NCBI RefSeq assembly: GCF_023213175.1
Contig: NZ_CP093312.1
Location: 496,001-560,000 of the forward strand
DNA from: Sulfurovum sp. XGS-02
GTDB lineage: Bacteria; Campylobacterota; Campylobacteria; Campylobacterales; Sulfurovaceae
Direction of reading: 5' to 3'
Length of the DNA: 64,000 bases
A program made the position numbers and the translations under genes. Shown here piece after piece: positions 59,731 through 64,000 of the stretch; the first letter of the stretch is position 1, and each line of letters opens with the position of its first letter. The notes under the pieces are model-generated. The model saw nothing but the letters and a program-made list of their open reading frames with translations. It was not told the DNA's origin and ran no database searches.

Positions 59731-60099
59731 TCATTTAGTATTATCAAATTGGAATACTACGCCTTTTTCATAATCCTCAACGAGCGTTTTAAAACATGAA
59801 GCTATTCCCTTCATTGTTTCTATATTAGGCTCAATATAAATTTTATTTTTGCTCTTTGTCATAGTGATGATCTGTGCATCTTTCAGCTCTTTAAGATGAC
59901 GAGATATCGTAGGCAGTGCAAAATCAAATTGTTCGGCAATACTTGTAACACATGTAGCTTGAGCGATCATATCATCTTTGGGTTGGCTATCATCAATAGA
60001 ACAGGCATAGCCACCCGTAAAAATGTTTTTAAATATTTTGAATCTTGTCTCGTTCCCCAGTGCTTTGAAAATCTTGATCTTATCTTCCATATTCAACAT
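59731..60099 (-). CDS. ArsR-family transcriptional repressor
   Basis: From ATG 60099 it is 122 residues; TTG 60111 and ATG 60090 are alternatives. It is a winged-helix protein with recognition helix DFALPTISRHLKELKDAQII and a start of the ArsR type (IFKALGNETRFKIF). Cysteines C33 (GGYACSID) and C50 (QATCVTSI) lie between helix 2 and the recognition region and may bind metal, but the spacing is not the ELCVCDL type. It faces the thioredoxin/MerT/methyltransferase genes over a 146 nt gap that carries a perfect palindrome, so it likely represses both directions. Confidence 0.9.
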   Translation of the reverse strand: MLNMEDKIKIFKALGNETRFKIFKNIFTGGYACSIDDSQPKDDMIAQATCVTSIAEQFDFALPTISRHLKELKDAQIITMTKSKNKIYIEPNIETMKGIASCFKTLVEDYEKGVVFQFDNTK

Positions 60100-60145
60100 T
60101 ATTTTATCCAACGTAATTTTTACATGATTATAACAAAATAAGATT

Positions 60146-60245: not shown

Positions 60246-60641
60246 ATGAAAAAACTCATCATACTTTTACTTATGACATTAGGACTCAATGCATCTGAAA
60301 TCACTTGGTTTGAAAGTTATACAAAAGCAGCAGCAGTTGCCAAAGAAGAGAACAAGCCGATGTTACTCTTCATTAACAGGCCAGGGTGTGGTGCATGTGA
60401 GTTTATGAAAGAGAATGTATTTACAGATAAGATGATTTATACTTATGTTAATGAACATTTCATACCTGTATCTTTAGATATCAATAAAAACGATGCGCCT
60501 AAAGACCTACAATCAGAAGTGACGCCAACATATCATTTTGTGAAATATGATGGAACAAAAATAAGAGAGACACTTTTTGGTGGGAAGACAGGTAAATTTT
60601 ACCTGAACATACTCAAAGACGCGGTTGCTGCGTATAAATAA
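60246..60641 (+). CDS. Exported thioredoxin-fold protein
   Basis: The 131-residue protein has a short signal peptide (MKKLIILLLMTLGLNA) and a thioredoxin-like fold with active site GCGACEFM (C48, C51). The conserved cis-proline region is EVTPTYHFV. It resembles SoxW/thiol-disulfide proteins. It is the first gene of the ArsR-controlled run (AAGGA ribosome site), so it may keep protein or metal-bound thiols reduced in the periplasm for the downstream proteins (inference). Confidence 0.85.
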   Translation: MKKLIILLLMTLGLNASEITWFESYTKAAAVAKEENKPMLLFINRPGCGACEFMKENVFTDKMIYTYVNEHFIPVSLDINKNDAPKDLQSEVTPTYHFVKYDGTKIRETLFGGKTGKFYLNILKDAVAAYK

Positions 60642-60659: not shown

Positions 60660-61631
60660 ATGTCAAATAAAAAAATCATCACTGCACTTGGTGCAACTAT
60701 TGCAGCCTCATTGTGTTGTGTTACTCCTATACTCGCTGTTTTAGCCGGCTCTAGTACTTTAGCTTCATCTTTCTCTTGGTTAGCACCCTATCACAACTAT
60801 TTGGTTGTATTTACTATTCTTGTTTTACTTTATGCCTGGTATGATAAATTGAAACCATTAAAAGAGGTTGAATGTGCGTGTGATGAGAAAGAAGGATTTT
60901 TTTCAAGTAAAACTTTTTTAGCTATAGTTACCCTGTTTGCTGTAATCATGCTCTCTTTTCCTCAATGGGGAGATAAGGTCTTTGTCTCAGCACCAAGTGC
61001 AAAGAGTTGTGCGACAGGCACCTGCGAAACTGAAGTAGGCTCAAAAAAAGAAGCAAAAGCAAATTCACTACCCTCTAAACAAGGAGAATCAGCCTGCGAG
61101 ACAGAGTCAGACTGTAATAAAAAACCATTTAAAACTGTTGAAAACACTCTACATAGTAAAGTGCCAGAGGGAGAGCAGGCATTAAAAGTTTTTAATTATA
61201 TGAAGAGAGAAAGAACAAATCCAACGCCTTACAAACAAGTAGCATGTACTGGAACAGGACTTGCGAAATTGGATAATTCAATTGCAGAAAAAAGAGAGAT
61301 TATTGAAGAGATGCCTCCTCCTGTACTAAAAAAGTTATTGGATGATGAAGAGGAAATTGTACTTCTTGATGTTCGTGAAGCAGGGCATAAGAATGGGCAA
61401 ACCATAGATGCATTCGAGAGTCATTCTATGACTTACGGGAAAGTACTTTTTAACAGCTTGAAAGTCTTACAAGATGAAGATGCAGTGATTGTCGTATATA
61501 GTAAGTTAGGGCTTATCAGTCTTTTTGCAGCAGCGACCTTAAAAGATTTGGGTTATAAAAATGTATACCATTTAAAAGGTGGATTAAAAGCTTGGGAACT
61601 TGCTGGGTACCCAACAGTAGATGAGGAATAG
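60660..61631 (+). CDS. MerT-like transporter fused to a rhodanese-like domain
   Basis: The 323-residue protein starts with three membrane segments (about 9-30, 45-62, 84-101). TM1 has the vicinal cysteines ASLCCVTPILAVLAG (C19, C20) and the loop after TM2 has VECACDE (C72, C74), both as in MerT mercuric transporters. A Cys-rich linker follows (C117, C122, C146, C152, C196), then a rhodanese domain (about 215-320) whose active loop reads VVYSKLGLIS: S281 replaces the catalytic cysteine. By MerT topology the C-terminal part would be periplasmic. No merA or merP is in the window, so the substrate is uncertain. Confidence 0.82.
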   Translation: MSNKKIITALGATIAASLCCVTPILAVLAGSSTLASSFSWLAPYHNYLVVFTILVLLYAWYDKLKPLKEVECACDEKEGFFSSKTFLAIVTLFAVIMLSFPQWGDKVFVSAPSAKSCATGTCETEVGSKKEAKANSLPSKQGESACETESDCNKKPFKTVENTLHSKVPEGEQALKVFNYMKRERTNPTPYKQVACTGTGLAKLDNSIAEKREIIEEMPPPVLKKLLDDEEEIVLLDVREAGHKNGQTIDAFESHSMTYGKVLFNSLKVLQDEDAVIVVYSKLGLISLFAAATLKDLGYKNVYHLKGGLKAWELAGYPTVDEE

Positions 61632-61634
61632 AGC

Positions 61635-63005
61635 ATGGTAGATAACACTCAGATAATTGAGCTCTATACAGAGCTGGCAGAAAATCCCAATAAAGATTTT
61701 GGCTGGGACAAAGGTTTAGCAAACGCAAAAGCGCACGGTTATAAAGAGGAATGGATCAAGGCTCTTCCACATGAGATCTGGCAATATTGTGCTGCTGTCG
61801 GTAATCCTTTTAATGAAGCTGATATAAAAGAAGGTGATACTGTTTTAGATCTAGGTTGCGGTGCTGGCGTAGATGTTTTAGTAGCACGGTTGCATGTTGG
61901 GCAAAAGGGAAAAGCATATGGAGTAGATATTACTCCAAAGATGGTTGAACTTGCATCTAAACATGTAAAAACAGCAGGTTTTGAAAATGTTGAGATCTTA
62001 GAAAGCAGTTTTGATTCTCTCGATCTTGAAGATGAGAGTGTGGATGTAGTTATATCAAATGGTGCTATTAACCTAACCTCTTGTAAAGAGTCTGTATTTG
62101 CAGAGATTTATCGTGTGTTAAAACCAAATGGGAAAATTTATTTCGCTGATATGATAGATATTTCTGAGCCATCATGTTGTAATGTCGAGCAAAGCTTATG
62201 TTGTGAAAGTTCTGGTGAAGAAGATTGGGCAAATTGTGTAGCTGGAACACTGCATGAAAACGAACTTATAGAGTTGATTCAAAAATCTGGATTTAAAGAT
62301 GTAGAGTGTACAGGGCATACGCACTATACAACGGCTGAAGCGACCAGAGGTGCGACATTTAGTGCTACAAAAATTCCTGCTGATGTGAGAAGAGAAAATC
62401 ATTGGGATAGTTTATTTCAAAGTATAGATTACATGCAAGTACTTTGGCATCAAGTGCATCCCGGTAAATCTCTAGAACAGATCGAAGCCTTTGCGAAAAA
62501 AGATGACTGTATCATTGATGTAGGCTGCGGTGCATCTTTGCTGGTCGATCATTTGATCGCAAAAGGATATCGAAATATCTATCTGCTTGATGCAGCGAAT
62601 GCATCTTTGGAGATCGTCAAAGATCGCCTCAAAGATGATGCGGACATTCCTATATATATATGTTCTGATATTGTCAACTTCCAACCGACACAAAAATGCA
62701 AAGTATGGCATGATAGGGCCATGTTCCATTTTCTGCTGAACAAACAAGACCGGATCAAATACTTTGACGTTTTGAATGATGCTTTACTTCCTGATGGTAT
62801 GGCTATCATCAATACCTTTGCTACCGGAGGTGAAACCAAATGTGCCGGGTTGAACACTGCACAATATGACAGTAAAAAAATAGCCGAAGAACTCCCCAAA
62901 GGTTTATCTTTGGTAGATACAGAAAACTTTGATCATACCACGCCAAAACATACCAAACAAAAATATTGTTGTTTTTATATCAAGAAGGGTACAGTAGATC
63001 CCTAA
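61635..63005 (+). CDS. Fusion of ArsM-like and second SAM methyltransferase domains
   Basis: The 456-residue protein has two class I methyltransferase domains. The first (about 30-245) resembles arsenite methyltransferases: LDLGCGAGVDVLVA, SNGAINLTSCKESVFAEIYRVL and CVAGTLHENELIELI, with C150, C201 and C225 as candidate metal ligands. A CC-rich insertion around residues 181-190 is unusual. The second domain (about 260-450) has IIDVGCGASLLVDHL and WHDRAMFHFLL and ends in a CC pair. It starts 3 nt after the MerT-rhodanese gene, so it shares its transcript. The substrate may be arsenic or another soft element; each domain could act on a different one. Confidence 0.82.
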   Translation: MVDNTQIIELYTELAENPNKDFGWDKGLANAKAHGYKEEWIKALPHEIWQYCAAVGNPFNEADIKEGDTVLDLGCGAGVDVLVARLHVGQKGKAYGVDITPKMVELASKHVKTAGFENVEILESSFDSLDLEDESVDVVISNGAINLTSCKESVFAEIYRVLKPNGKIYFADMIDISEPSCCNVEQSLCCESSGEEDWANCVAGTLHENELIELIQKSGFKDVECTGHTHYTTAEATRGATFSATKIPADVRRENHWDSLFQSIDYMQVLWHQVHPGKSLEQIEAFAKKDDCIIDVGCGASLLVDHLIAKGYRNIYLLDAANASLEIVKDRLKDDADIPIYICSDIVNFQPTQKCKVWHDRAMFHFLLNKQDRIKYFDVLNDALLPDGMAIINTFATGGETKCAGLNTAQYDSKKIAEELPKGLSLVDTENFDHTTPKHTKQKYCCFYIKKGTVDP

Positions 63006-63700: not shown

Positions 63701-64000
63701 ATGCCTCGTTCAATACCCTGGTGGCTTGGTGGTCTCTTAATGGCTTTACTGTTTTATTATACGTTTTCTATCTGGGGTGCTGATCGTCCTATTGGTGCAT
63801 CAACCGGAATGTCATATCTTGCTAATTTGATTTTTGATCTGGATCCAGAGCAGTATGAATATGCTGCGATCATAGAGACATCCGGTGCCTGGGAAGCTGT
63901 TATGCTTATCGGTGTATTTTTTGGCGGACTGTTTATGTCTACGGTTGTGACCAAAACATTTCATATAAGTTATATACCTACACTTTGGAAAGAAAGAAAA
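63701..64000 (+). CDS. YeeE/YedE family membrane transporter, 5' part
   Basis: The frame opens at ATG 63701 (AAGGATAA ribosome site) and runs off the window after 100 codons without a stop. The visible part holds two or more membrane segments (WWLGGLLMALLFYYTFSIWG; AVMLIGVFFGGLFMS). The YeeE/YedE-like loop RPIGASTGMSYLA and the GAWEAVMLIGVFFGG helix are also visible. Relatives import thiosulfate, and some YedE proteins are tied to selenium. It may belong with the upstream sulfur or metalloid genes, but its own palindromic promoter region separates it. Confidence 0.82.
   Translation, partial: MPRSIPWWLGGLLMALLFYYTFSIWGADRPIGASTGMSYLANLIFDLDPEQYEYAAIIETSGAWEAVMLIGVFFGGLFMSTVVTKTFHISYIPTLWKERK

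Follow-up and report, generated by a model that had tools for sequence, protein, structure and literature searches.

A conserved cassette in Sulfurovum sp. XGS-02 consists of an ArsR-type regulator, a MerT-type membrane carrier fused to a rhodanese domain, and a two-domain methyltransferase, and the fused rhodanese has a serine in place of its catalytic cysteine. We put the chance at about one in two that the cassette encodes a mer-like capture and import relay, in which the pseudo-rhodanese would serve as a periplasmic binding or docking module and the methyltransferase would act instead of MerA. The host is a sulfur-oxidising, vent-type bacterium. Its genome is a single contig of 2.19 Mb, of which we analysed a stretch of 64,000 nucleotides (the window). 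The nearest relative of the fusion protein in a named record, at 91% identity, is from Sulfurovum sp. AR. No description of a MerT-rhodanese fusion or of the cassette was found in the titles and abstract openings of the open-licence papers listed by our searches.

The fusion reading frame is intact, starts with ATG and has the boundaries given in the initial annotation (Table 1). Its N-terminal part matches the Pfam family MerT (PF02411; residues 4-103, E = 1.5e-6) at 28.7 bits, under the gathering score of 32.9, and the NCBIfam family MerTP_fusion (NF033556; 3.9e-38) at 130.9 bits, where the cut-off of 180 is not reached. The latter match spans residues 10-112 only. The C-terminal HMA domain is absent, and a rhodanese domain is found instead (PF00581; residues 223-313, E = 5e-10, 40.2 bits, above the gathering score of 22.2). 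Both cysteine pairs that we take to be defining for MerT, one in helix 1 and one in the loop that joins helices 2 and 3, are present (C19 and C20; C72 and C74). These four residues, together with C117 and C196 of the linker, are invariant in all 17 rows of the alignment, a pattern that would fit a metal relay, and C122 is a cysteine in 16 rows. The linker is indeed rich in cysteines by number (117, 122, 146, 152 and 196), although C146 and C152 are poorly kept (9/17 and 10/17 rows). The proposal that it traps metal gains from the conservation of 117, 122 and 196, which are possible ligands. To our knowledge, the motif around C196, PTxxxQxACxGxG, belongs to no familiar family. C117 and C122 are also present in a rhodanese-less protein (L033) that stops soon after them.

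Table 1. Features of the cassette and of the fusion protein, in window positions.
Feature	Position	Strand	Evidence or remark
ArsR/SmtB-type regulator, divergent	59731..60111	-	start TTG 60111 or internal ATG 60099; HTH_5, HTH_metalloreg
Thioredoxin_7-like protein, signal-like N-terminus, CGAC motif	60246..60641	+	PF13899 2.7e-11
MerT-rhodanese fusion, 323 aa	60660..61631	+	ORF, Pfam, NCBIfam, alignment
MerT-like part, residues 1-110, three hydrophobic helices	60660..60989	+	PF02411, MerTP_fusion, tree with MerT-HMA proteins
Cys19-Cys20, helix 1	60714..60719	+	invariant 17/17
Cys72-x-Cys74, helix 2-3 loop, predicted cytoplasmic by charge rule	60873..60881	+	invariant 17/17
Cys117 and Cys122, CxxGxC directly after helix 3	61008..61025	+	C117 17/17, C122 16/17
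Cys196, linker motif PTxxxQxACxGxG	61245..61247	+	invariant 17/17
Rhodanese-fold domain, residues 216-323, Cys-free	61305..61628	+	PF00581, pLDDT, structure matches
Ser281 codon AGT, catalytic Cys position	61500..61502	+	alignment with Sud, tree rows
Two-domain SAM methyltransferase, ArsM-like N-terminal domain	61635..63005	+	3 bp 3' of fusion

The fused rhodanese is probably periplasmic, as had been proposed from MerT topology. In the MerT-HMA homologues, a MerP-like domain occupies the spot of the fused rhodanese. Among the stand-alone homologues, 18 of 21 have, by eye, a hydrophobic leader-like N-terminal stretch; the exceptions are the L028 homologue, which is without its N-terminus, and two of genome G080 (L078 and L079), which have none. 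The charge pattern points modestly to an N-in, C-out arrangement, with one or two lysines and arginines at the N-terminus, none in loop 1 (17/17), two to five in loop 2 (with three to six acidic residues), and zero to two after helix 3.

The fusion is tightly linked to the methyltransferase gene. Our search of 175 genomes of the family matched 15, of which 12 encode the fusion and three (G078, G125 and G136) encode MerT-HMA proteins only. At E up to 1e-80, 15 of the 175 genomes have a homologue of the methyltransferase: 12 of the 12 with the fusion versus 3 of the 163 without a fusion match (Fisher P = 3.9e-16, uncorrected for kinship). In each of the 12, it lies directly 3' of the fusion, with the copies of G080 and G122 cut by contig ends, and the same order is seen in L025, L026, L027, L028, L031 and L034. 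The three others are G091, G139 and G115; in G115, a contig end cuts the methyltransferase copy exactly where the fusion would lie. The methyltransferase needs neither the rhodanese domain nor the fusion, since L033 has a MerT part and the methyltransferase with the rhodanese absent, and two other loci are fusion-less in the fetched stretch. The first of these (L074 5803-8591, G091) is the window's chromosomal place, where the methyltransferase and flanks are kept without the ArsR, thioredoxin and MerT-rhodanese genes. The second (L056 6196-10378, G484) has an ArsR gene, a stand-alone Cys rhodanese, a DsrE-like gene and a two-domain methyltransferase, without a MerT part. At L030 (6912-7562), tblastn finds only the second domain 3' of the fusion, the ArsM-like half being lost or elsewhere, and L076 (5901-6650, G139) encodes a 250-aa methyltransferase that matches the first domain only (residues 6-246, 61% identity); the 13 kb fetched there contain no fusion.

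Against the arsenite methyltransferase model PRK11873, the methyltransferase scores 182.7 bits, and the cut-off of 263 is not reached. It resembles ArsM 5evj (3.4e-22), whose arsenic-ligand cysteines we take to be 72, 174 and 224. Only C201 aligns with a ligand cysteine; the other places are V55 and G143, and the invariant C52 and C150 lie close to them. Eight cysteines, C201 among them, are invariant in 15/15 homologues, and NGAINL stands opposite the NCVINL of 5evj in all 15 full-length homologues. The second domain gave weak matches only among solved structures (best E 0.0019). The ArsR-type gene matches HTH_5 (8.4e-6) and HTH_metalloreg (7.4e-14; 51.3 bits, just below the cut-off of 55), and its Cys 37, 54 and 106 are invariant in 23/23 homologues (21 loci, downstream paralogues included); a comparison of the protein with solved structures returned no useful match. 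The thioredoxin-like gene, 18 bp 5' of the fusion, is at that place in the window genome only, among the loci compared. The cassettes of L034 and L027, and by sequence likeness that of L045, have DsrE and stand-alone rhodanese genes in their vicinity. Just 3' of the cassette, there is a split YeeE/YedE-type Sulf_transp pair with a DsrE-like protein (window 63701-64000 and L043 7702-9279). A tRNA search within the window found none.

On the MerT and mercury side, the homology to MerT stands, but mercury itself gains no direct support. Of the 22 genomes that we tested, 11 have the fusion or methyltransferase cassette and 11 were picked without the fusion (the window genome is included, G125 is not). 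None of them, the window genome included, has MerA over the cut-off of 454.45 bits. Matches below this cut-off are found in all (up to 340 bits in G066; 249.9 at best in the window genome) and are expected to be related oxidoreductases. Mercury import as part of a mer-type operon, with the linker in MerP's stead, would agree with the MerT homology and with the presence of MerT-HMA and MerA within the same genus (G125). We nevertheless consider this unlikely given the MerA result, a fusion without a MerP-like domain, and a constant partner that is an ArsM-like methyltransferase. In G125, a MerTP protein (237.5 bits, cut-off 180) is encoded directly 5' of MerA (535 bits, cut-off 454.45), and the MerT-HMA homologue scores 52.8 on PF02411, above the cut-off of 32.9. 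The MerT parts of six MerT-HMA proteins are homologous to those of the fusions and separated from them by a 100/100 branch. One branch of the family is thus seen with HMA and MerA (MerA checked in G125 only) and the other with rhodanese and methyltransferase; these different partners suggest a parallel mechanism, with methylation versus MerA. Acr3 as an arsenic partner was set aside, as 0/22 genomes have it over the cut-off. ArsB (21/22 over the cut-off) and ArsP-type permeases (20/22) are present with and without the cassette and are therefore uninformative about it.

The serine annotated at the catalytic position is borne out. In an alignment with Sud of Wolinella (1qxn), S281 stands opposite the loop cysteine (VVYSKLGLI vs VVFCKTAAR), which we take to be catalytic. 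We looked for another cysteine that could take the catalytic place; residues 216-323 of the window protein contain none, and so there is no alternative within the domain. An AlphaFold model made with 17 sequences has a mean pLDDT of 64.5, with residues 201-320 at about 85-92. Linker residues 100-166 and the greater part of the MerT region score below 50, so no metal site is visible in the model. Rhodanese structures matched by the model (Foldseek, VIA-align) include 6mxv (Z 17.3), 2hhg (16.1) and 1qxn (11.9), as well as 5ve4 and 5ve5 (C314S), laboratory mutants inactivated by the same Cys-to-Ser change as the natural S281. Two further pocket arginines of Sud, presumably R67 and R94, are Tyr and Ile in the window protein; in 8/8 domains of the Ser/Gly clade, Tyr replaces one of them and Ile or Val the second, and both are Arg in the remaining 27 rows. 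With the nucleophile and both arginines gone in the window clade, persulfide formation is hardly possible, and we strongly infer that the window rhodanese is without sulfurtransferase activity. Selenocysteine at the catalytic position was considered and dropped, as the window codon is AGT; the stops of G081 accompany a frame change in the record, and the stop of L028 is a TAA placed elsewhere.

Relatives were found in Sulfurovum, Sulfurimonas and Arcobacter. A search of 398 genomes of the order, a draw that overlaps other genome draws, added fusions in G403 and G454, and 397 genomes of the phylum (profile, E up to 1e-40; overlapping draw) held no further fusions. A short peptide pattern scan of the genome collection gave 15 loci and added the Sulfurimonas and Arcobacter records. 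Among viral contigs, three stretches had a pattern match and none was a relative; 18 plasmid records match the MerT part (in one, H1, the match runs to residue 192), and in every one less than 80% of the query is covered. Duplicates and larger refetches were merged (L001/L043/L061; L004/L022/L044; L005/L024; L006/L023/L057; L012/L029; L013/L018/L021/L032/L058; L014/L019/L050; L007/L045/L059; L008/L046/L060; L037/L027/L051; L038/L042/L034/L052/L062/L071). L028 (in-frame TAA, Gly form), L033 (rhodanese-less), and L035 and L036 (weak matches) were dropped before counting. The 18 fusion proteins that were compared carry 19 rhodanese domains between them. Directly 5' of the fusion, L025 has a short extra MerT-like reading frame (330-578; 39% identity over residues 1-92) with an altered cysteine pattern.

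The Ser form is real, but it is no one-off. The catalytic residue of the 19 fused domains is Ser in eight, Cys in six, Gly in two, Asp in two and Thr in one, so that cysteine is absent from 13 of the 19 versus 0 of the 21 stand-alone homologues read. The latter are 16 from loci fetched before the tree was built and five fetched later (L077-L081), for which the catalytic residue alone was read, after tree building. On a tree from which the loop columns were left out, the Cys/not-Cys state takes five changes and all residue states take seven. This tree is unrooted, and 13 of its 32 inner branches are starred. Starred branches hold eight Ser/Gly domains together (100/99), join these with the Cys protein L011 (98/96), unite L029 with L030 (97/83), and define a clade of L007-L010 (96/94) with both Cys and Asp forms. 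Provided that cysteine was not regained, it would have been lost separately at least three times on well-supported branches. Cysteine and both pocket arginines are retained in 6 of the 19 fused domains, and activity may therefore matter in those fusions.

Could the protein still be a sulfurtransferase, with Cys196, which lies 20 residues ahead of the domain, or a different linker cysteine as sulfur carrier in the rhodanese pocket? C196 is invariant, and sulfur-relay genes lie nearby (DsrE and rhodanese at L034, L027 and L045; the Sulf_transp pair and DsrE at the window). However, C196 is just as invariant where fusions retain the catalytic cysteine, so it has not arisen as a substitute, and the window clade is without the two pocket arginines. 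We regard this activity as improbable.

There is similarly little chance that the pseudo-rhodanese is a scaffold for a separate active rhodanese, in a mixed dimer or in tandem. L032/L058 does have both a Ser and a Cys domain in one open frame, and a stand-alone Cys rhodanese lies shortly 5' of the Gly fusion in L026, L034 and L028, with a DsrE gene between in L034. Against this, the fused domain is the only one found in G137 and G110 (Ser), G086 and G122 (Asp), and G088 (Thr), in searches that took the own-genome stand-alone rhodanese as the query (E up to 1e-15; G110 and G088 are incomplete, and distant rhodaneses are below reach). The tandem frame (L032 6444-7565, the same place as L058, in G081) has Ser in its first domain and Cys in its second, with a copy of the linker motif ahead of each; the MerT part is in a different frame of the record.

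Purifying selection acts on the rhodanese domain, including where the cysteine is gone. We compared 10 pairs by simple Nei-Gojobori counts; dS is near or above 1 in several, so exact dN/dS values are soft. For rhodanese, MerT part and linker, respectively, dN/dS is 0.109, 0.211 and 0.198 in window/L022; 0.043, 0.061 and 0.421 in window/L024; 0.058, 0.098 and 0.605 in window/L023; 0.056, 0.117 and 0.602 in L022/L023; and 0.080, 0.042 and 0.617 in L023/L024 (all Ser). The corresponding values are 0.118, 0.195 and 0.319 for L026/L034 (Gly) and 0.063, 0.010 and 0.071 for L009/L010 (Asp), and three pairs including a Cys form have 0.055, 0.042 and 0.109 for the rhodanese vs 0.033, 0.050 and 0.047 for MerT. 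With such low values in Cys-less pairs, the domain is not debris. The weakest alternative is that the rhodanese has been decaying since cysteine loss and has no present role: the loop and pocket arginines are also altered in the Ser/Gly clade, the rhodanese is absent from L033, L028 (Gly) has an in-frame TAA, and rhodanese dN/dS is above that of the MerT part in 4/10 pairs (L023/L024, L009/L010, L007/L009 and L008/L010), but it is 0.04-0.12 in 7/7 Ser, Gly or Asp pairs and below the MerT part in 6/10, and D237, R239, G284, G298, G308 and W312, among others, are invariant.

The domain is therefore folded, selected and, from repeated cysteine loss together with a conserved fold, probably a binding rather than a catalytic one, in line with the inactive binding module of the initial annotation. 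We favor a MerT-type inner-membrane relay in which the MerP-like partner would be replaced by the linker (Cys117, Cys122 and Cys196) and the pseudo-rhodanese. At recruitment, the rhodanese may have been an active and secreted domain of the sulfurtransferase type, whose nucleophile was later lost several times, and it would now most likely be a folded binding or docking module. Periplasmic thiols would bind a metal(loid) and pass it from Cys117/122/196 to Cys19-20 and Cys72/74 and on to the co-encoded methyltransferase. An ArsR-type thiol sensor would control this path, and methylation would replace reduction by MerA; which metal(loid) this is, and that it ends up methylated, are guesses. A fuller version, which we offer tentatively and think doubtful as a whole, is a second MerT pathway in Campylobacterota. 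Here, the periplasmic cysteine linker and pseudo-rhodanese would catch a thiol-bound metal(loid), MerT would import it and a dedicated two-domain methyltransferase would volatilise or expel it, the rhodanese having begun as an enzyme that strips sulfur from metal(loid)-sulfide complexes and been repeatedly turned into a receptor.

If the relay is real, a MerT carrier is coupled to a methyltransferase rather than to mercuric reductase in vent-type sulfur bacteria. One family and one cassette also provide a natural series of nucleophile loss (Cys to Ser, Thr, Gly and Asp) under selection, and thus pseudo-enzyme evolution is testable against close relatives that retain the cysteine.

Non-catalytic rhodanese domains that act as binding platforms are known, for example in TBC1D23 (PMC7274447). 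The likeness is a rhodanese fold used as an interaction platform; TBC1D23, however, is a eukaryotic trafficking protein that retains a putative active-site cysteine, which the fusion has lost. MerT, rhodanese and ArsM families linked to selenoproteins appear in a selenoprotein review (PMC13188914), and a further review also treats selenoproteins (PMC9312934). The NCBIfam models of such families (NF045683, NF045694 and NF041537) score on the same kinds of protein as we find here (MerT, rhodanese and ArsM), but all scores are far under the cut-offs, and the catalytic codon in the window is AGT. The single-domain rhodaneses Sud of Wolinella (1qxn) and GlpE (1gmx) share the fold and the loop position, whereas in the fusion the catalytic cysteine is a serine, Tyr and Ile replace two pocket arginines of Sud, and the domain is joined to a membrane carrier. 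With the MerT and MerTP fusion families (PF02411, NF033556), the protein shares three helices, both cysteine pairs and an extra domain after helix 3, but that domain is a rhodanese in place of HMA (MerP), both curated cut-offs are missed, and MerA is not over the cut-off in the genome. A parallel in arrangement is the MerT-HMA and MerA system of G125 (L053), which has a homologous MerT part and an ArsR-type gene nearby; where G125 has HMA and MerA, the fusion has a rhodanese and a methyltransferase.
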